From Caedimonas sp. (GTDB taxonomy: Bacteria; Pseudomonadota; Alphaproteobacteria; Caedimonadales; Caedimonadaceae), in assembly GCA_016794245.1 (NCBI GenBank), contig JAEUKR010000043.1, forward strand, positions 1 to 48,044: a stretch of 48,044 nt of DNA, read 5' to 3'. Of the stretch, positions 4,010 to 47,454 are shown piece by piece. The notes under the pieces are model-generated. The model had not been told where the DNA came from and did no database searches. It saw only the letters and a list, made by a program, of their open reading frames with translations. The first letter of the stretch is position 1. Each line of letters opens with the position of its first letter. A program made the translations under genes and the position numbers.

Positions 4010-4136
4010 TCTACCCTTCGTCTTTCAAATTTTGAGAGTATTGAATGTCAGGATTCATTCTGCAAGAGGTCTAATGTTTACGCTGCTCAAGACTCACCAC
4101 GCGTTCGCCACCGCATATTTTGAAATCCTTTGGGGA
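4010..4136 (+). repeat. Family A palindromic repeat, near-full copy 1
   Basis: Begins ...CTACCCTTCGTCTTTCAAA and ends TTTTGAAATCCTTTGGGGAT, with the middle carrying ACGCTGCTCAAGACTCACC and CGCGTTCGCCACC, matching the other copies. It also carries TGCAAGAGGTCT (about 4061-4072), a word found again in the family B copy at about 35348. It sits between divergent msbA and the metallo-hydrolase gene. The remainder of this gap (3957-4009 and 4137-4227) shows nothing else I can name. Confidence 0.75.
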
Positions 4137-9642: not shown

Positions 9643-10941
9643 ATGAAAGAATCACGCAATTTGCTTATTAAAAAGATAAAAGAACGCATTAATCAAGAAT
9701 TAAATGATCGGGCAGGCCTGGAAAAAAAATATCGGTGGGAAATCAACGCTCGACCCAGTCAACGACTTCCCCAAGGAGAATGGCATACCTGGTTTGTTTT
9801 GGCAGGTCGAGGCTTTGGCAAAACCAGGACAGGAGCCGAGACCATTCGCCAGTGGGTTCATCAGGGACAGTATCGCCGCATCGCCCTTGTCGCCAATACG
9901 GAAAGCGATGCGCGAGACGTGATGGTTGAGGGAGAAAGCGGTTTGCTGGCCGTACACCCGGATCGCGAGCGTCCTCTCTTTGAGCCTTCCAAACGACAAC
10001 TCAGATGGAAGAATGGAGCCGTTGCAACCATTTATAGCGCTGAAAATCATGAGAAACTGCGCGGACCCCAGTTTGATTGCGCCTGGGTGGATGAGTTGGC
10101 AAAATTTCGCATGGCTGAAAAAATCTGGGAGCAGCTTCATTTTTCCTTAAGGCTTGGTGTTTATCCAAAGACAATCGTCACCACGACGCCGCGCCCCCTT
10201 CCTCTTTTACGAAAGCTTCTTGCCGAGGAACATCAGGGAGTCGTGGTGACGCGAGGAAATACCTTTGAGAATGTTAATAACCTTTCCCCCGCATTTATTG
10301 CCTCGGTTAAAGGAAAATACGAAGGAACGAGAGTGGGGCTGCAAGAACTGTACGGCGAGATCCTTGACGCCAGAGAGGGCGCGCTCTGGACTTACGAAAT
10401 CCTTGACCGTCAGCGCACTTCTGAAGTCCCAAGACTCGCGCGTATCATCGTTGCAATCGATCCCGCCGTTACGCATCATGAAAAAAGTGATGAAACGGGC
10501 ATTATCGTTGCCGGTCTTTCTGATAAAAGCATCGCTTACGTTCTGGAAGATCTGAGCGGCAAGTATTCTCCAGCGGCGTGGGCAAGGATCGCTGTTGAAG
10601 CGTACCATCGCTGGAAGGCTGATCGTTTGGTTGCCGAAGTCAACAAGGGAGGAGACCTGGTTGAAAAAGTCATCCGATCGGTCGACGCAAGCATCAGTTA
10701 TAAGGGCCTGCATGCAAGCCGAGGCAAGATGACGCGCGCTGAACCGGTTGCCGCGCTCTATGAGCAGGGAAAAGTATTTCATGTTCAGAAAGGACTTGAA
10801 ATTCTTGAGACCCAACTATGTTCCTATTCGGCCATGACGGGACAGAAATCGCCTGATCGTCTGGATGCTCTCGTTTGGGCTTTAACGGAACTTGTGTTCA
10901 ATCAGAAAACAATCCTTCAGCCCCGTATCTGGAAGATTTAA
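9643..10941 (+). CDS. Phage/GTA-type terminase large subunit (orphan)
   Basis: DNA-packaging motor ATPase plus nuclease. Walker A GRGFGKT is at residues 55-61, the Walker B/catalytic pair is in CAWVDELAKF near 150, and the coupling motif TTTPRP follows. The RNase H-like nuclease starts at IVAIDPAV near 270 and ends with DRLDALVWAL near 405. 432 residues is full length for the gp2-like terminases of Rhodobacter-type gene transfer agents. A strong AGGGAGAAA precedes the ATG. No portal, protease, capsid or small terminase gene is adjacent: neighbours are metG and rlmE. It appears intact in frame and motifs, hence possibly still useful. Confidence 0.88.
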   Translation: MKESRNLLIKKIKERINQELNDRAGLEKKYRWEINARPSQRLPQGEWHTWFVLAGRGFGKTRTGAETIRQWVHQGQYRRIALVANTESDARDVMVEGESGLLAVHPDRERPLFEPSKRQLRWKNGAVATIYSAENHEKLRGPQFDCAWVDELAKFRMAEKIWEQLHFSLRLGVYPKTIVTTTPRPLPLLRKLLAEEHQGVVVTRGNTFENVNNLSPAFIASVKGKYEGTRVGLQELYGEILDAREGALWTYEILDRQRTSEVPRLARIIVAIDPAVTHHEKSDETGIIVAGLSDKSIAYVLEDLSGKYSPAAWARIAVEAYHRWKADRLVAEVNKGGDLVEKVIRSVDASISYKGLHASRGKMTRAEPVAALYEQGKVFHVQKGLEILETQLCSYSAMTGQKSPDRLDALVWALTELVFNQKTILQPRIWKI

Positions 10942-13244: not shown

Positions 13245-13247
13245 GAT

Positions 13248-13373
13248 ATACCCTTCGCCTTTCAAAATCTGGGAGTGTTGGACATCGGAATTCGTCCTGC
13301 TCACGTACTGATTGTACGCTCCGCGGGACTCACCGCTCGTCTGCCTACCCAGATTTCGAAATCCTTTGGGTAT
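13248..13373 (+). repeat. Family A palindromic repeat, full copy 2
   Basis: One of the best copies: ATACCCTTCGCCTTTCAAAA at the left, GGAATTCGTCCTGCTCACGT in the middle, CGCGGGACTCACCGCTCGTC, then ATTTCGAAATCCTTTGGGTA at the right. The arms CTTTCAAAATCTGGG and CCCAGATTTCGAAATCC are complementary, so the element can fold into a long hairpin. It ends 36 bases before the start codon of the acetoacetyl-CoA synthetase gene and therefore must carry or adjoin its promoter. Confidence 0.85.
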
Positions 13374-13408: not shown

Positions 13409-15514
13409 ATGACACCGCTTTGGACACCCACTCTCCGTCAGATTGAATCCACAAATTTATGGCGTTTTTTAGAGACGGTAAACGCTCGATGTGGGACCCG
13501 TTTTACGTGTTATGACGAACTCTATGACTGGTCGATCCATAACATTCCCGACTTTTGGCGTACGTTTTGGGATTTTGCCGGTGTGATCTCTTCAAAACAG
13601 GGAGAAAGAGTTTTATCGGACACTCCTTTCATGGAAGGTAAGCATTTCTTTCCTGACGCGACGCTTAACTATGCGGAAAATCTTTTAAAAAACCGCCGGA
13701 GCATCGCCGCTCGCTCTCAGGACATCAGCCAACGAACAAGCCATGAATCCGAATCCCGCTCTCGCAAAGCGCCTGTGATGAACAGGGGCGAGGGGGAGAA
13801 TCATGAGAGCCAATCTTCTGACTTCCTGAAAAGCAAAGGCGAAGAGTATGAGTATGCTCAGGCGATTGTTTTTTGGGGAGAGGATCAGGTAAAGCGCCAT
13901 TTAGATTTTAACGAATTGACATCACAAGTTGCCGCTGTGCAATCCGCTTTAAAAGAATGGGGCGTGAGAAAAGGGGATTGTGTCGCGGGGTTCATGCCAA
14001 ATATGCCTGAAACGATCGTGGCAATGCTTGCGGCAGTCAGCCTTGGCGCTATTTGGACGTCCTGCTCTCCTGATTTTGGATTGCCGGGAATTCTGGATCG
14101 ATTCGGTCAAACCATGCCAAAAGTTTTATTTACTGCGGATGGTTATTATTATGCGGGGCGTTGGTATTCTTCTCTTGAGAAGAGTCGTGAGGCTAAAAAA
14201 CATCTTCCCTCTGTTTTAAAATTAATAGTTGTTCCTTATAAAGGTAAAGACGACTCTCAGCAGGATCTGGAGCCAGGAGAGATTTCTTACATGGACATGA
14301 TTCGCCAAAAGGATTTTGGCCGACCCGAATTCGTCCAGGTTCCTTTTAATCATCCTCTTTTTATCATGTATTCGTCAGGAACAACGGGCGTGCCCAAATG
14401 TATCGTTCATGGCCATGGAGGTACCCTCCTTCAGCATTTGAAAGAGCATCAGCTGCATTGCGACATTCATCCCGGTGATCGGGTCTTCTACTTCACAACC
14501 TGTGGCTGGATGATGTGGAATTGGCTTGCCTCGGCATTGGCATCGCAAGCAACCGTTATGTTATTTGATGGTTCTCCTTTTCATCCGCGGCCGGATTTCC
14601 TGTTTGAATACGCGCAGACAGAAAGGTTTACGCTCTTTGGAACCTCAGCCAGGTTTATTGAGAGCTTGCGCAAGCAAGAAATTGAACCAAAGAAAGTGTA
14701 TGATTTAACTTCCTTGCGTCTTATCACGTCTACGGGATCGCCTCTTTCGCCGGAAGGATTTGACTATATTTATCGCTCCGTCGCATCCCATGTTTGCTTG
14801 TCTTCGATTTCAGGAGGAACGGATATTATTTCCTGCTTCGCTCTTGGAAATCCGATAGGTTCTGTGTGGCGCGGCGAGCTTCAGGCGCGGGGACTTGGAC
14901 TCAAGGTCGAGGTTTTTAATGAAGAGGGTAGGTCCATCAAGGGGCAAAAGGGCGAGCTTGTGTGTACAGCGCCTTTTCCTTCGATGCCAATAGGATTCTG
15001 GAATGATCCCAAAGGTGAAAAATATCATGACGCTTATTTTTCACGTTTTCCCGATGTATGGTGCCACGGCGATTATGTGGAGTTAACGGAACATAATGGA
15101 CTTGTCATTTATGGCAGGTCCGACTCCACTTTAAATCCGAACGGTGTGCGTATTGGCACTGCGGAAATCTATCGTCAGGTGGAACATGTTGAGGAAGTTC
15201 TGGAATGCATCGCCATCGGTCAGGAGTTTCAGGGGGATAGCCGTATCATTCTCTTTGTTCATTTAAAGGAAGGGATAGAGCTTGAGCCTTGGCTGATCGA
15301 GAAAATCAAGCATCAGATACGCGAGAACACAACGCCGCGCCATGTGCCTGCGCTGATTTTGCAAGTCAGAGATATCCCCCGGACACTCAATGGCAAGCTT
15401 GTGGAACGGGCGGTGACGGAAGTTGTTCATGGAAGGCCAGTCAAAAATAAGGAAGCGATCGCCAATCCGGAAGCGTTGGAATTCTATAGAGATTTAAAAG
15501 AACTTAGGTATTAA
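13409..15514 (+). CDS. Acetoacetyl-CoA synthetase (acetoacetate-CoA ligase)
   Basis: ANL-superfamily acyl-CoA synthetase activating acetoacetate with ATP and CoA. The N-terminal block (MTPLWTP, FWDFAGVISS, FFPDATLNYAENLL) is specific to acetoacetyl-CoA synthetases. The AMP-binding loop YSSGTTGVPKCIVHG is at about 320-335, CGWMMWNW and STGSPLSPEGFDYIY follow, and the C-terminal GRSDSTLNPNGVRIG and PRTLNGKLVE motifs complete the enzyme. At 701 residues it is about 50 longer than usual. The excess is one low-complexity, Ser/Arg/Glu-rich insert at about residues 94-147, between NYAENLLK and AIVFWGED, which looks like an in-frame family A repeat. It may feed host ketone bodies or polyhydroxybutyrate breakdown products into acetyl-CoA. 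Confidence 0.93.
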   Translation: MTPLWTPTLRQIESTNLWRFLETVNARCGTRFTCYDELYDWSIHNIPDFWRTFWDFAGVISSKQGERVLSDTPFMEGKHFFPDATLNYAENLLKNRRSIAARSQDISQRTSHESESRSRKAPVMNRGEGENHESQSSDFLKSKGEEYEYAQAIVFWGEDQVKRHLDFNELTSQVAAVQSALKEWGVRKGDCVAGFMPNMPETIVAMLAAVSLGAIWTSCSPDFGLPGILDRFGQTMPKVLFTADGYYYAGRWYSSLEKSREAKKHLPSVLKLIVVPYKGKDDSQQDLEPGEISYMDMIRQKDFGRPEFVQVPFNHPLFIMYSSGTTGVPKCIVHGHGGTLLQHLKEHQLHCDIHPGDRVFYFTTCGWMMWNWLASALASQATVMLFDGSPFHPRPDFLFEYAQTERFTLFGTSARFIESLRKQEIEPKKVYDLTSLRLITSTGSPLSPEGFDYIYRSVASHVCLSSISGGTDIISCFALGNPIGSVWRGELQARGLGLKVEVFNEEGRSIKGQKGELVCTAPFPSMPIGFWNDPKGEKYHDAYFSRFPDVWCHGDYVELTEHNGLVIYGRSDSTLNPNGVRIGTAEIYRQVEHVEEVLECIAIGQEFQGDSRIILFVHLKEGIELEPWLIEKIKHQIRENTTPRHVPALILQVRDIPRTLNGKLVERAVTEVVHGRPVKNKEAIANPEALEFYRDLKELRY
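13690..13850 (-). repeat. Degenerate family A repeat inserted in frame in the acetoacetyl-CoA synthetase gene
   Basis: The extra segment ends CCTGAAAAGCAAAGGCGAAG then AGTAT, close to the reverse-orientation family A terminus TTTTGAAAGGCGAAGGGTAT. Upstream, AATCCCGCTCTCGCAAAGCG and GAGGGGGAGAATCATGAGAG align in order with CATCCCGCGCAGCG and GAGCAGGAGGAATCCCGA of the copy at 15713-15840. The translated end FLKSKGEEY parallels ILKGEGY read from the intergenic copies in the same frame. The left boundary is not clear. Confidence 0.5.
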
Positions 15515-15705: not shown

Positions 15706-15712
15706 ATAAGAT

Positions 15713-15840
15713 ATACCCTTCACCTTTCAAAATCCGGGGGCCGTTGGACAGTCGGGATTCCTCCTGCTCACGCATTTCACGTACGCTGCGCGGGATGCAC
15801 CGCTCGTCCGCCACCCTGGATTTCGAAATCCTTCGAGTAT
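15713..15840 (+). repeat. Family A palindromic repeat, full copy 3
   Basis: ATACCCTTCACCTTTCAAAA, TCGGGATTCCTCCTGCTCAC, TTCACGTACGCTGCGCGGGA, CACCGCTCGTCCGCCACCCT and GGATTTCGAAATCCTTCGAG plus TAT. 128 bp. It lies eight bases upstream of tRNA-Gln on the tRNA's strand. The nucleotide arms CAAAATCCGGGGG and CCACCCTGGATTTCG can pair. Confidence 0.85.
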
Positions 15841-16158: not shown

Positions 16159-17697
16159 ATGTCAAAAGCTCCAGATGTGCCAGCTGAACAAGAGTTTGCA
16201 AGTATTCGCGGAATTTTCTGGCCCATTCATAATTTTGAGCTTAAAAAGTTCCTTCCCATGGGATTGATGATGCTTTGCATCCTTTTCAACTATACGGTGC
16301 TGAGAGACACAAAAGATGCCCTGGTTGTTCTGGCCCCTGCGGGGGGAGCGGAAACAATCTCGTTTCTCAAGCTTTATGGCGTTACGCCTTCGGCTATTCT
16401 TTTCATGGTTATCTTTGTGAAATTGGCGAATGCTTTAAATCGAGAGAGTCTTTTTTACGCGATTGTTATTCCGTTTCTGGTATTTTTTGCTTGCTTTGCC
16501 TGGATTATTTATCCTAATCGTTATGCGCTGCATATTGGTCTTGAGACTATTCAGTCTTTGCAGGCCACTTATCCTAACTTCCATTATGTTTTCCCCGTTA
16601 TTGGAAACTGGAGCTTTAGCCTGTTTTATATTCTGTCTGAGCTTTGGGGCAGCGTGGTTCTTTCGATGCTTTTCTGGCAGTTCGCAAACCATATTACGCG
16701 CGTCGCGGAAGCGAAAAGATTTTATGGTCTGTTTGGCATGATTGGCAACTTTGGATTGGCTCTCTCTGGAAGCTTGATTTATGTTTGTTCAAATTACGCC
16801 AATTCACTGGATGAAAGTATTGATACATGGGGCATTAATCTAAAAATTCAAATGACTATGGTTGTCATTTCGGGGATTATTACCATGAGTCTTTATTATT
16901 GGATGCACCGAAGTGTGCTGACGGATCCTCATTTTTTTGTTGCAGAAGAAAGCGGCGCGAAATCCAAAAAAAACAAGCCAAAACTTTCTTTGTCGGAAAG
17001 TATGAAATATCTTCTTCAGTCAAAATATTTAGGGTTGATCGCGCTTATCGTGCTCGCTTATGGTATTACCATCAACCTGGTTGAAGGTGTCTGGAAAGGG
17101 CAAATCAAGATTCGTTTCCCAAAAGAGAACGATTACCTTGCTTTCATGGGGCAATTCTCGTTTATGACGGGATGTGTCACAATCGTGATGATGATTGTGG
17201 GCAATAACATTCTTCGTCGTCTGAGCTGGAAAACGGCCGCTTCAATTACGCCGGTCATGATTTTAGTGACCAGCTTGATCTTTTTTGGGTTCATTATGTA
17301 TTCGAACCAGATTGGCGATCCTTTTTCTCCATTCCTGGGGACAACGTTGGTGATGGGTGCCATCATGATTGGTCAGTCCCAGAATATTTTGTCAAAAATG
17401 ACAAAGTATACCTTCTTCGATCCTACCAAGCAAATGGCCTATATTCCCCTTGATCCTGAGTTAAAAGTCAAAGGTCAGGCAGCGGTAGAGGTTATTGGAG
17501 GACGGGCTGGAAAATCTGGAGGCGCTTTTGTTCAGTCGACTTTGCTTGCAGCAATTGGCGGCAGTGTGACCTTGGCAAGCCTCGTGCACATTCTGGGTCC
17601 GATCGTGATTGTGGTGACAATTGCTTGGTTGGTCAGTGTATCTCGGCTAAGCAAAAGATTTGAAGACCTGACAAAAGGCAAATCAGCAGGGGCGTAA
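16159..17697 (+). CDS. tlc: ATP/ADP translocase (NTT/Tlc nucleotide antiporter)
   Basis: A 512-residue, about 12-helix inner-membrane carrier of the NTT family (TC 2.A.12), which exchanges bacterial ADP for host ATP or imports other nucleotides. The conserved opening FWPIHNFELKKFLPMGLMM, NYTVLRDTKDALVV, ELWGSVVLSMLFWQFAN, EAKRFYGLFGMIGNFGL and TFFDPTKQMAYIPLD are family-defining. The family is restricted to obligate intracellular bacteria and plastids, so the gene is the strongest marker of an intracellular lifestyle here. Which nucleotide is carried cannot be told from sequence. It is monocistronic with a 3' family A repeat. Confidence 0.95.
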   Translation: MSKAPDVPAEQEFASIRGIFWPIHNFELKKFLPMGLMMLCILFNYTVLRDTKDALVVLAPAGGAETISFLKLYGVTPSAILFMVIFVKLANALNRESLFYAIVIPFLVFFACFAWIIYPNRYALHIGLETIQSLQATYPNFHYVFPVIGNWSFSLFYILSELWGSVVLSMLFWQFANHITRVAEAKRFYGLFGMIGNFGLALSGSLIYVCSNYANSLDESIDTWGINLKIQMTMVVISGIITMSLYYWMHRSVLTDPHFFVAEESGAKSKKNKPKLSLSESMKYLLQSKYLGLIALIVLAYGITINLVEGVWKGQIKIRFPKENDYLAFMGQFSFMTGCVTIVMMIVGNNILRRLSWKTAASITPVMILVTSLIFFGFIMYSNQIGDPFSPFLGTTLVMGAIMIGQSQNILSKMTKYTFFDPTKQMAYIPLDPELKVKGQAAVEVIGGRAGKSGGAFVQSTLLAAIGGSVTLASLVHILGPIVIVVTIAWLVSVSRLSKRFEDLTKGKSAGA

Positions 17698-18011: not shown

Positions 18012-18638
18012 CTATTTTGCAAAAATTTTTTTCAGCCCCTGAGCCGTTTCCTTTATCTTTTGGGTCCAAAAAGGAAGCTTCATCACATCATCAATACGAC
18101 GATTCAGAAAAGCGCGCGTTTCAGCAAAATCAGTAGAAGAATCTCTTAACCAGAAGAAGAATGTTGAGGTGTAAACGCCTGATAATAATAAGCGTTTTGA
18201 ATAATAATTAAAGTCAGTCGCCTGGTCGCCCGCAGCATACCATATTTCGCTGACAGCGCTAAAAAGACTTTGAAAAGTCTGGGATGTTCTCAAAGGATGC
18301 GCCCGATAAAGAAGAACTTTGGGTAAAGCGATGCGATAAGGTTCGAGTACGTCAAGTCTTATCATCAGAGCGGTGGCAATTCGTTCTCACACACGCATGG
18401 AAGCCAGGTCAATCAGTTGCAATTTTTCAAGCATTTGACGGTCGATCATATGGATAAAATGTTGAAGAACCTTGTCGAGATCACCTTCAAAAGCGCGCCA
18501 CGCATCTTGTTCCTGAAAGCCTGCCTGAACGACGGCGTGTTTAAGCGCGTCATGGGACCAACCGTAAGAGGAAACAAACCCCAACATGTGTTGAACAATA
18601 TCGTCCCGGATTTCCGGGCTGTGAATTGATAATGACAT
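18012..18638 (-). pseudogene. COQ9 family ubiquinone biosynthesis protein, interrupted by an in-frame TGA
   Basis: The two parts are in one frame, separated by one nonsense codon at 18387-18389. The N-terminal 83 residues (GFVSSYGWSHDALKHAVVQA, then LEKLQLIDLASMRV) are the TetR-like part of COQ9. After TGA the same frame continues as ERIATAL and MIRLDVLEPYRIALPK, AGDQATDFNYYSKR, LLLSGVYTSTFFFWL and LNRRIDDVMKL, the lipid-binding COQ9 domain. Family members usually read MRVRERI here, so TGA replaces a codon that is normally Arg, consistent with CGA to TGA. COQ9 presents ubiquinone precursors to COQ7. It may be a recent pseudogene, a readthrough case, two polypeptides, or a sequencing error. 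There are no other disruptions, so decay is young. Confidence 0.85.
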
Positions 18639-18740: not shown

Positions 18741-18944
18741 GTGCAAGTCTCGGTTCGCGAAAACAATATAGAGCAAGCTTTGCGGTCGTTAAAAAAGAAA
18801 TTACAACGCGAAGGCATCTTTCGTGAAATGAAGCTGCGTCGTCATTTTGAGAAACCGTCTGAACGCAGGAAGCGTGAAAAATCGGAAGCTATTCGACGCC
18901 TTCGCAAAGTTCAGCGTAAGCGCGTGGAACGCGAAGGATTCTAA
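18741..18944 (+). CDS. rpsU: 30S ribosomal protein S21
   Basis: A 67-residue basic protein with the family signature [40 protein letters not shown] and [10 protein letters not shown]. It takes part in translation initiation on the 30S platform. The start is GTG 18741 (MQVSV), preceded by AGGAGAGTGAGGGA. It is not linked to dnaG-rpoD as in gammaproteobacteria, and it has its own terminator at 18993-19040. Confidence 0.96.
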
Positions 18945-22336: not shown

Positions 22337-23125
22337 TTATCCTTGCCGACCTATCATCTTTTGTTTTGTATCCGCAATCGCTTTGGCGGGGTTAAGACCT
22401 TTGGGGCAGGTTTTGGTACAGTTCATGATCGTATGGCATCGATAAAGACGATAGGGATCTTCCAGTTGATCAAGACGCTCGCCCGTGTATTCATCACGGC
22501 TGTCATTGATCCAGCGGGAAGCTTGCAAGAGAACGGCGGGGCCTGGATAACGATCTCCATTCCACCAATAGCTTGGACAGCTGGTCGAGCAACACATGCA
22601 TAAGATGCACTCCCATAATCCGTCCAGTTTTGCTCGGTCTTCAGGGCTTTGAAGTCGTTCTCGATCCGGATACTCAGGCGAGGCGGCCTGAAGCCACGGT
22701 TCAATGGAGGCGTATTGGGCATAAGCGACGCTCAAGTCTGGCACCAGATCTTTGATGACGGGCATATGAGGTAAAGGATAGATACGAACATCGCCCTTGA
22801 TCTCGTCAATGTGCTTCGTGCAGGCCAGCGTGTTGACCCCATCAATATTCATCGCGCAACTTCCGCAGACGCCTTCACGGCATGAGCGGCGAAAGGTGAG
22901 TGTCGTATCGATCTCGTTTTTAATTTTGATCAACCCGTCTAAGACCATAGGCCCACAAGCCATCAAATCAATTTCATAAATGTCCACCCGTGGGTTTTGA
23001 TCGGGATGATCGGGATCCCAGCGATAGATTTTAAAGAGTTTAATGTTGCGGCTTCCTTTTTGAGAAACAGGATATGTCTTCCCTTTTACGACTTTTGAAT
23101 TGTCAGGAAGTGTAAATTTAGCCAT
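22337..23125 (-). CDS. sdhB: Succinate dehydrogenase iron-sulfur subunit
   Basis: Electron-transfer subunit of complex II. Three clusters are visible: 2Fe-2S ([16 protein letters not shown]...LAC), 4Fe-4S ([16 protein letters not shown]) and 3Fe-4S ([17 protein letters not shown]). From ATG 23123-23125 (MAKFTLPDN) it has 262 residues, with CGGAG seven bases upstream. A longer frame to 23179 would need ATT and is rejected. Last gene of sdhCDAB on the reverse strand, 99 bases after sdhA. Confidence 0.96.
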
Positions 23126-23224
23126 TTTTTTCTCCGCTTGAGCTTCTGTTGATCTCCGCTTGGGTTCCTCTTGAATCAACCTTGTTCAGTTTCCCCAGAA
23201 TTTTATGGGCATGCTCTTAATTTA

Positions 23225-25021
23225 TTAATATACCCTTGCTTTTGGAGGGATAACCTCTACATCGTCTGTCAGCGTACGCATATGTACAGGTCGATAGCTG
23301 ATCCTTACTTTTCCGTCAGAGTCCAACCAAATTATTGTATGTTTAAGCCAATTCCTGTCATCTCGTTCTGGGTAATCCTCGCGTGCGTGTCCTCCTCGGC
23401 TTTCCTTGCGGTCGAGGGCGGAATGCAATGTTACGACCGATTGTTGCAGCAAATTTTCAAACTCCAGAGCTTCCATCAGATCTGAATTCCAGATCAGAGA
23501 GCGATCAGACAGGCCGATATCTTTTGAGGCTTCCACGATCTTGTTCATCTTTTCAATCCCTTGCGCCAGAATATCTTGACGGCGAAAAACCGAGCAATGA
23601 GCCTGCATGATTTTTTGCATGTGAATGCGAATTTCTCCTGTCTTCAGGCTGCCGCTTGAATGACGAAGGGCATCAAATCGATCAAGCGTTTTCTCTCCCG
23701 CACTTTGAGGGAGAGAGCGAGGAGGCGTATTGGGCTTGAGAGTTTCAGCCGCTCTCAAAGCAGCGGCACGACCAAAAACGACAAGATCCAGAAGCGAATT
23801 CGTCCCCAGACGATTGGCGCCGTGTACGGAAACGCAAGCGGCTTCGCCAATCGCCATGAGTCCTGGCGCCACGGCTTCAGCGTTTCCCTTCGTTGGATTT
23901 ATCACCTCCGCATGAATATTGGTGGGAATCCCGCCCATGTTGTAATGGACGGTCGGCGCTACAGGGATGGGCTGTTTTGTGACGTCAACGCCGGCAAATA
24001 TTTTTGCCGTTTCGGAAATACCGGGAAGGCGTTCGTGAAGAAGTTTGGGGGGTAAATGTTCAAGATGCAGATAAGCATGATCTTTTGCAGGGCCTGCGCC
24101 TCTGCCTTCATTGATTTCGATCTGAATCGCGCGCGAGACGACATCACGGGATGCCAGATCTTTGGCATGAGGGGCATAACGCTCCATAAAGCGTTCTCCT
24201 TCCCCGTTGGTGAGATATCCGCCCTCTCCGCGCGCGCCTTCGCTGATCAGACAGCCCGCTCCATAGATTCCGGTAGGATGAAATTGGATGAATTCCATGT
24301 CTTGCAAGGGAATCCCCGCACGAAGCGCCATGGCGTTTCCGTCTCCTGTCGATGTATGGGCGCCGGTACAGGTGAAGAATGTCCTTCCGTGGCCCCCTGT
24401 AGCCAACACCACAAGATGCGCGGAGAAACGGTGCAGCGTTCCATCTTCCAGGCTCCACGCGATGACGCCTCGGCATGTGCCTTCCTCATCCATGATCAGG
24501 TCGAGGGCAAAATACTCGATAAAAAAGCGCGTTTTATGTTTAAGGGATTGTTGATAAAGGGTGTGCAGAATGGCATGTCCTGTACGATCTGCGGCGGCGC
24601 AGGCGCGCTGAGCCATGCTTTTTCCCTGCGCAATCGTATGTCCGCCAAATTGACGTTGATAAATCTTTCCCTCCGGTGTCCGCGAAAACGGGACGCCAAA
24701 GTGTTCCAGTTCGATGACAGCCTGAATAGCGTTGCGGCACATATACTCGATGGCGTCCTGATCGCCTAGCCAGTCCGACCCTTTGACCGTATCATACATA
24801 TGATAACGCCAATCGTCTCCGTCGCTCATATTGTTCAGGGCGGCGCTGATGCCGCCTTGCGCGGATACCGTATGGCTGCGGGTTGGAAAGACTTTAGTGA
24901 GGCAGGCTGTGCTTAATCCTGTCGCGCTCATGCCCAGAGCGGCGCGAAGCCCCGCGCCGCCAGCGCCAACGATCACAACGTCATAGGCGTGATCGATAAT
25001 GTCATAGGCTTTTTTCATCAT
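23225..25021 (-). CDS. sdhA: Succinate dehydrogenase flavoprotein subunit
   Basis: The catalytic subunit oxidises succinate to fumarate. The FAD-binding [18 protein letters not shown] is near the N-terminus, and the covalent-FAD histidine lies in [11 protein letters not shown]. Active-site blocks [20 protein letters not shown] and [20 protein letters not shown] are intact. 598 residues ending in PPKARVY, as usual. Start ATG 25021 ([14 protein letters not shown]). Sits between sdhD and sdhB. Confidence 0.97.
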
Positions 25022-25090
25022 GATTTAAAATGAACTTCCCTTTCAAGTTGAAGCCTTTTCGAGATTTTCCTGAAACTTTTCCAAAATCTT

Positions 25091-25498
25091 TCAGACATGT
25101 TTAAATTGAATGATAAGCACTGACAAAACCCCCCAAACTCCTAAAACGAGAACGAGCGCTTTGACGCCCAGAATCAATATGATTTTGAGAGCATCACAGT
25201 GTACATAATCTTCAATCACGACCTGAAGACCCAATTGACCATGATACAGACTGGCGCCGATGAGCAGAATCATCAAAACGGTTTCACACGGGCATTGAAG
25301 ATAGGCGATAAAAGCGGCGTAGTCAGGGCCTGCATGGGGCAAGACACACCAGATAAACCACAATCCCAATGGGAAGAGGGCTATCGCTGTGGTGCGCTGT
25401 GCCCACCAGTGGGCTGTGCCGTTTTTAGCGCTTCCCAGGCCACGGACAATCCCAAGCGGCGTTTTCATCGACTTTGCGTGAGAATGTGAATATGACAT
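25091..25498 (-). CDS. sdhD: Succinate dehydrogenase membrane anchor subunit D
   Basis: A small three-helix anchor of complex II. KTPLGIVRGLGSAKNGTAHW is the typical start of alphaproteobacterial SdhD. The haem-ligand region ASLYHGQLGLQVVIEDYVH supplies His and the quinone-site Asp/Tyr. I chose ATG 25496-25498 (MSYSHSH), which has AAGAGG six bases upstream; ATG 25519 is an alternative whose ribosome site is too close. 135 residues. Lies between sdhC and sdhA. Confidence 0.9.
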   Translation of the reverse strand: MSYSHSHAKSMKTPLGIVRGLGSAKNGTAHWWAQRTTAIALFPLGLWFIWCVLPHAGPDYAAFIAYLQCPCETVLMILLIGASLYHGQLGLQVVIEDYVHCDALKIILILGVKALVLVLGVWGVLSVLIIQFKHV

Positions 25499-25543
25499 CT
25501 TAACCTCTTGTATCGCCATGACCTCTTTCTTATTTGATATTAT

Positions 25544-25918
25544 TTATACCATAAGCCAGGTCAATAAAGTAAGGATGGCTGAACTTCCGATGACCGCCCA
25601 CCCTGATTTGTAAACCGTTGCAAGGTCGAAGCCATACCCTGCGTCCCAGGCTAAATGCCGGATTCCGTTACAAAGGTGATAGAAAAAGCAATAACATAAG
25701 ACGAAAAGATAAAACTTGCCTAGCCAGTGCTGAGAAAGACTGTAGAAAATCTCGTATGCGTCTTTTCCTCCTGCAATAGTCGCCAGCCAAATGACCAGGA
25801 TAAAGGCGCCAGAGCACAAAACGATCCCCGTTATGCGATGGGAAATGGACAACACAGAAGTGATTTGGGGACGGTAAATTTGCAAATGAGGGGAAAGGGG
25901 ACGTTGTATTTTGTTCAT
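25544..25918 (-). CDS. sdhC: Succinate dehydrogenase cytochrome b556 subunit
   Basis: 124 residues with three predicted helices. RPLSPHLQIYRPQITSVLSI and SHRITGIVL match the SdhC opening (quinone-site Ser/Arg), and CFFYHLCNGIRHLAWDAG carries the haem-ligand His. First gene of the operon. A perfect 11-bp inverted repeat lies 32 bases upstream of its start (25950-25982). Confidence 0.95.
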   Translation of the reverse strand: MNKIQRPLSPHLQIYRPQITSVLSISHRITGIVLCSGAFILVIWLATIAGGKDAYEIFYSLSQHWLGKFYLFVLCYCFFYHLCNGIRHLAWDAGYGFDLATVYKSGWAVIGSSAILTLLTWLMV

Positions 25919-35172: not shown

Positions 35173-35182
35173 GCTTTCTGTT

Positions 35183-35432
35183 ATACCCTTCGCCTCTCAA
35201 AATCCGGGGCGGGGGGCGTTGGCCTTCTGGATTCATCCTGCTCACATCCTTCATGTATAGATAAGATATTATCTAACTATGCCCTAATCAATTGCTGCGG
35301 TTTCTCGTTCGCTTTTGCCTCAAAATCCCCACGCCATTTTTAGTCCATGCAAGAGGTCTTCACGTACTTCACGTACGCTGCGCGGAACTCACCGCTCGTC
35401 CGCGCCCCTCTATCTTGAAATCTTTTGGGTAT
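35183..35432 (+). repeat. Family A repeat, copy 5, split by a 98-bp insertion containing family B
   Basis: Left half ATACCCTTCGCCTCTCAAAA...CTGCTCACATCCTTCATGTA (35183-35257), then foreign sequence 35258-35355, then right half TTCACGTACGCTGCGCGGAA...CTTGAAATCTTTTGGGTAT. Without the insert the copy is about 150 bp, with a short G-rich duplication on the left. It lies between convergent hppA and the MFS gene. Confidence 0.75.
35310..35362 (-). repeat. Family B repeat, copy 2 (nested in family A)
   Basis: The reverse complement reads GACCTCTTGCATGGACTAAA, AATGGCGTGGGGATTTTGAG, GCAAAAGCG, matching copies 1 and 4. A perfect 7-bp inverted repeat TAGATAA-GATA-TTATCTA lies at the other end of the same insertion (about 35258-35275). 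Confidence 0.6.
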
Positions 35433-41986: not shown

Positions 41987-42109
41987 ATACCCAAAGGATT
42001 TCGACGTCCAGAGTGACAGACGAGCGATGAGCCCTGCGCAGCGTATAAGTATGTAAGCAGGCTGAATCCCGATCTTCAACACCTCCAGATTTTGAAAGGC
42101 GAAAAGTAC
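41987..42109 (-). repeat. Family A palindromic repeat, full copy 7
   Basis: On the forward strand it starts ATACCCAAAGGATTTCGACG, continues GACGAGCGATGAGCCCTGCG and GTAAGCAGGCTGAATCCCGA, and ends CCAGATTTTGAAAGGCGAAA plus AGTACAT. It lies between two reverse-strand genes (M23 peptidase upstream, symporter downstream). The A/T-rich flank with a G10-like run at about 41946-41955 shows nothing else. Confidence 0.8.
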
Positions 42110-47180: not shown

Positions 47181-47334
47181 GACTCCATTGGTTAAGCGGA
47201 ATGATGAGATTTTGCAAGTGCTGAATGATGCTTGGCAGTAAGACTTTAGTTTGTTTGAGCAAATCTTGAGCAAATATGGTTGACATTCACCCTGAAATAC
47301 TGATAGATCCCGATTAGTTGGACTATACCTTTCG

Positions 47335-47454
47335 CGTTTCAAGATATAAAGGCGTTGGCCTTCGGGTTTCCTGTCTGTTCGCGTGCTCGTTATGCAGGTG
47401 GCATGGGATGGCCGGTCGTTCGCCTCCCTGGTATTTTGAAATACTTTAAGGTAT
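47335..47454 (+). repeat. Family A palindromic repeat, divergent full copy 8
   Basis: Left end ATACCTTTCGCGTTTCAAGA, GGCGTTGGCCTTCGGGTTTC in the middle, GTCGTTCGCCTCCCTGGTAT and TTTGAAATACTTTAAGGTAT at the right. The ends are symmetrical (ATACCTT...AAGGTAT). It ends 22 bases before tRNA-Tyr. The remaining 47181-47334 contains a direct repeat TTGAGCAAAT x2 and TTGACATTCACCCTG, a possible -35 region. Confidence 0.65.

Follow-up and report, generated by a model that had tools for sequence, protein, structure and literature searches.

The window, as we call the whole 48,044-nt stretch that was analyzed, carries a coq9 gene with rpsU as its divergent neighbor, a gene for an ATP/ADP translocase, and a set of succinate dehydrogenase genes (Table 1). 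The COQ9 family (TIGR02396/PF08511) is an auxiliary lipid-binding partner of COQ7. The coq9 gene is a single frame read from 18638 to 18012 on the minus strand, and its translation consists of 83 residues, a TGA, 124 further residues, and the terminal stop. The first-pass annotation had described one in-frame TGA in an otherwise intact coq9, and this was confirmed: the TGA lies within the 18380-18395 interval to which it had been assigned, with Val and Glu on either side, and the ATG that had been pointed out as a possible site of reinitiation is present downstream of it. In a structure model of the product (mean pLDDT, 77.6; three sequences used), the stop sits between predicted helices 4 and 5, right at the start of the latter.

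Table 1. Features of the window that bear on the interrupted coq9 gene, and the best copies of a dispersed repeat
Feature	Position	Strand	Basis
Interrupted coq9 frame	18012..18638	-	Translation, TIGR02396, PF08511, human COQ9 structures
Premature TGA (codon 84), where predicted helix 5 (83-101) begins	18387..18389	-	Translation, model
Upstream part, 83 residues, predicted helices 1-4; COQ9_N match under cut-off	18390..18638	-	
Downstream part, 124 residues, COQ9 domain PF08511; 18/18 best-conserved columns retained	18012..18386	-	
ATG (codon 92) suggested as a reinitiation site; not preceded by a Shine-Dalgarno-like stretch	18363..18365	-	
rpsU (ribosomal protein S21), divergent neighbor of coq9	18741..18944	+	PF01165
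ATP/ADP translocase gene (TLC family), sign of intracellular life	16159..17697	+	PF03219
Succinate dehydrogenase genes (flavoprotein, iron-sulfur, and two membrane subunits), quinone users	22337..25918	-	
Best window copies of the 85-nt repeat	13247-13331, 15712-15795, 42029-42108, 4012-4095, 35182-35257		

Further analysis of the frame, with the stop read as X, showed that it matches the COQ9 family model TIGR02396 over residues 13 to 193 at 156.7 bits (cut-off, 74.55) and the COQ9 domain PF08511 at 99.8 to 102 bits (cut-off, 20.5). The human COQ9 chains 4rhp and 6awl match residues 10 to 202 with E values of 8.8e-25 and 2.2e-24, respectively. The match is beyond chance because one homologous family spans the stop. 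The window gene thus resembles other members of the family in its full-length match, its conserved motifs, and its divergent rpsU neighbor, and differs from them in that the frame is interrupted at codon 84. The TIGR02396 model is in fact named for the divergent arrangement with rpsU, and the same pair recurs in three other members of the order (G004, G007, and G008); therefore, the window copy looks like an ancestral, vertically inherited coq9. A literature search found no publication joining COQ9 with alphaproteobacteria or with rpsU. A consensus scan alone placed a promoter-like site at 18724-18696, upstream of coq9, in a region where six such sites were found compared to 2.9 expected. The GC3 of the downstream part, which has only 124 codons, is 0.37, compared to a mean of 0.47 (standard deviation, 0.046) for long frames, a difference that was not taken as a signal at this length.

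The genome (1.33 Mb in 56 contigs, about 96% complete) contains a single COQ9 over the cut-off; a second true coq9 was rejected since no other match reached it, and the stop site had no second copy (0 matches) in viral contigs. An uninterrupted TetR/COQ9-like paralogue is encoded elsewhere (L059; C17:1819-2343), and similar proteins occur in three genomes of a sister genus (G001 to G003) that are without COQ9. It was rejected as a true COQ9, scoring 21.8 bits against the 74.55 cut-off of TIGR02396, with no PF08511 match and weak matches to TetR models, and it is not a demonstrated substitute for COQ9. The ATP/ADP translocase gene, the small genome, and a Holosporaceae match suggest that the organism is intracellular and lies near the Holosporales and Paracaedibacter-like groups.

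Wider searches used a sample of 323,046 bases out of 1,333 kb, made up of the window and 15 other stretches, in which in-frame stops rather than frameshifts were scanned. Some features of this sample are recorded here in their own right. The Rfam scan of the window returned three tRNAs and the ffh RNA and nothing more. A protein of 432 residues at 9643-10941 resembles, by eye, a phage-type terminase large subunit, and it lies amid cellular genes. A search for a dispersed repeat, about 85 nt long, gave 78 matches at E values of 0.01 or lower in the 323-kb sample, whereas five relatives (280 kb) and a shuffled copy of the sample gave none; the repeat is lineage specific, and three loci holding copies showed no Rfam match. 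Nine of the 78 copies fall within long open frames, including ubiA (L076:6150-6232), and a further copy is found in a SpoU-like frame (47324-47393). Another frame, 13409-15514, named by eye as acetoacetyl-CoA-synthetase-like, contains an insert-like Ser/Glu-rich stretch of about 50 residues (13679-13864), inside which lies a weak copy of the repeat (13760-13839; E, 4.8e-5). In Rickettsia, palindromic elements insert in frame in genes, and the 85-nt repeat recalls these.

The residue expected at the stop was examined in an alignment of 24 COQ9 proteins, from which seven COQ9-like paralogues (L025 to L031) were left out. Arg occupies the column in 18 of them, Lys in two, and Phe, Asn, Thr, and His in one each. 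The claim that the family has Arg at this position therefore holds for most relatives but not for the two closest ones (L003 and L004, with 45 and 44% identity), which are the two with Lys. As for the proposed CGA-to-TGA change, a single substitution is the simplest origin because there is no length change in the frame at the stop; however, the ancestral codon cannot be fixed as CGA, since the nearest relatives have Lys or other, varying Arg codons and eight sense codons sit one substitution away from TGA.

Apart from the stop, the gene shows no sign of decay. Among columns that are at least 85% conserved in other COQ9 proteins, the window gene retains every one, both after the stop (18/18) and before it (5/5). 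At a 70% threshold, it retains 29 of 35 after the stop and all 10 before it, which is within the range of intact genes. Its PF08511 score is 102 bits, whereas the order's four remaining COQ9 genes score 85 to 99 bits. In the COQ9 tree, the intact genes of G004 and G008 have longer terminal branches (0.91 and 0.95) than the window gene (0.74), and the branches of G005 (0.44) and G007 (0.36), which lie near each other, are shorter. Only the COQ9 tree was drawn on for this comparison, because the COQ7 row of G014 was a misextraction of 16 residues and a stop had cut the UbiH row of G007. The sole copy thus carries a disabling change with no further decay, which means that the stop is very recent, or that the protein is still made, or that the base is wrong. 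If it is a pseudogene, it can be called young at most. Of the explanations listed in the first-pass annotation (a very young pseudogene, readthrough, reinitiation, or sequencing error), the first remains the best, given the single stop, the full family match, and the absence of other decay.

Three other ubiquinone genes were looked for, along the lines advised in the first-pass annotation, and all were found uninterrupted: those for COQ7 (211 bits), for a hydroxylase of the UbiH type (412.9 bits), and for UbiA, whose single open frame matches in two pieces (320 bits). COQ9 was not found in the three sister-genus genomes, each about 99% complete; they retain COQ7, UbiA, and the UbiH-type hydroxylase, and the place beside rpsU is taken by other genes. 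In the order as a whole, this genome included, COQ7 is present in 9 of 10 genomes and COQ9 in 5 of 10. A survey of 385 genomes of the class, some of them incomplete, found 236 with both proteins over the cut-offs, 33 with COQ7 only, 33 with COQ9 only, and 83 with neither. Thus, the two co-occur with an odds ratio of 18, and COQ9 is nonetheless absent over the cut-off in 33 of the 269 COQ7-bearing genomes; COQ9 normally accompanies COQ7 yet is repeatedly dispensed with. Escherichia coli, one of 14 control genomes, has no COQ9 family match, and an E. coli ubiF deletion strain is reported to regain ubiquinone when given the Coq7 of Rhodospirillum rubrum (PMC5069965). For reconstructed animal proteins, the in vitro efficiency of COQ7 is reported to have risen 1.5-fold with COQ9 (PMC7615680). 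Incomplete ubiquinone pathways are described in 6 of 7 Holosporales species (PMC11707229), and five of nine pathway genes are described in a Paracaedibacter-like symbiont (PMC8163844). The UbiH-type match of G007, in the same order as the window genome, has one internal TAA (C51:10294-11451, L044). The expectation that a coq9 defect would affect ubiquinone synthesis is therefore weakened, though not excluded, by the sister genomes, by the 33 of 269 genomes, and by what is reported of R. rubrum Coq7. Given the sister genomes, the class survey, and the uninterrupted COQ7, UbiH-type, and UbiA genes, any ubiquinone defect is probably mild.

Whether the TGA is a stop at all, and whether it is really there, can be judged from the rest of the genome. 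An in-frame TGA would by itself be consistent with reassignment of the codon to an amino acid. However, the genome encodes release factor 2 (512 bits), TGA terminates 57 of the 165 long open frames that end inside the 323-kb sample as well as the COQ7 gene, and the COQ7, UbiH-type, UbiA, and release factor 2 matches are free of internal stops. None of the 35 tRNA genes found has a UGA-reading (TCA) anticodon; tRNA-Trp was itself not detected in this assembly of about 96% completeness. A recoded TGA was rejected on the release factor, the TGA-ended frames, and the tRNA set, and its probability is practically negligible. A wrong base, from an error in base calling or assembly or from an allele carried by a minority of the sequenced population, would leave the gene intact in the organism. 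The assembly is a draft in 56 contigs, an assumed error rate of 1e-5 would put about 0.5 stop-making errors in the coding DNA of the genome, and the gene is otherwise undamaged. Against this stands the codon usage scan of the 323-kb sample, which picked nine places where coding seems to continue past a stop. The other eight, with translations judged by eye, were gene ends closely preceding the next start or weak cases, leaving coq9 as the sole interrupted gene seen. A chance error would not favor a gene that the sister genus has lost, and we regard the wrong base as quite unlikely. That the only interrupted gene seen is the one lost in the sister genus is what favors a real loss.

The gene might also still work, through UGA readthrough, through reinitiation, or through two pieces acting together. 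The downstream part is undecayed and has the best PF08511 score of its order, the stop falls at the start of a helix, and an ATG follows eight codons later. However, the ATG lacks a Shine-Dalgarno-like stretch (0.1 kcal/mol, compared to -4.9 kcal/mol at the true start), and a product begun from it would lack half of helix 5 in the model. Readthrough has to contend with the lack of a UGA-reading tRNA among the 35 found, although the undetected tRNA-Trp tempers this point, and the sister genomes manage without COQ9. Taken together, a working gene is unlikely. A narrower form is a coq9 that functions in two parts or by readthrough. The stop would then divide the TetR-like N-terminal helices from the COQ9 domain, and both would have been retained either because the two act together or because low-level readthrough suffices for a helper of which little is required. 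We consider this very unlikely.

The reading that we prefer, with a probability of roughly two in three, is a real and recent nonsense mutation in a dispensable auxiliary gene of a genome-reduced, probably intracellular alphaproteobacterium that still makes ubiquinone. Translation would halt after 83 residues, just past predicted helix 4, so that the COQ9 domain would not be made and little or no COQ9 protein would be present. The intact COQ7 would hydroxylate demethoxyubiquinone without the help of COQ9 or less efficiently, and ubiquinone production would continue. Selection on the helper may have relaxed in the family, with the loss of coq9 beside rpsU completed in the sister genus and just begun here. 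What was observed is the stop, the single copy, the missing decay, the uninterrupted COQ7, UbiA, and UbiH-type genes, and the lack of COQ9 in the sister genomes; a real base, a lost protein, and continued ubiquinone synthesis are inferences. Two points speak against it. The missing decay fits a working gene or a wrong base equally well, and the dispensability of COQ9 is not universal, as the reported truncations in mouse and human indicate; COQ9 and COQ7 also go together in the class, as the odds ratio shows. With the mouse Coq9 R239X and human COQ9 R244X truncations, COQ7 and CoQ are reported to be strongly lowered, whereas with mouse Q95X they drop less than with R239X (PMC11495197).

The three mammalian alleles are like the window gene in having a premature stop in the same family, and, as reported, unlike it in the position of the stop and in belonging to a eukaryotic COQ complex (PMC11495197). 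If the stop is real, a COQ7 helper has been caught at the start of its loss, beside a sister genus that has completed it, and this group together with the COQ7-only lineages offers a natural setting in which to test the dependence of bacterial COQ7 on COQ9. Young pseudogenes are known, as a general class, from intracellular bacteria whose genomes are undergoing reduction. The window gene differs from them in that it is the one such gene seen in the 323-kb sample and in that the allele is known from one genome; it resembles them in its single disabling change, its otherwise conserved sequence, its small genome, and its relatives that have lost the gene. Shrinking genomes commonly acquire nonsense mutations in genes that they can do without.
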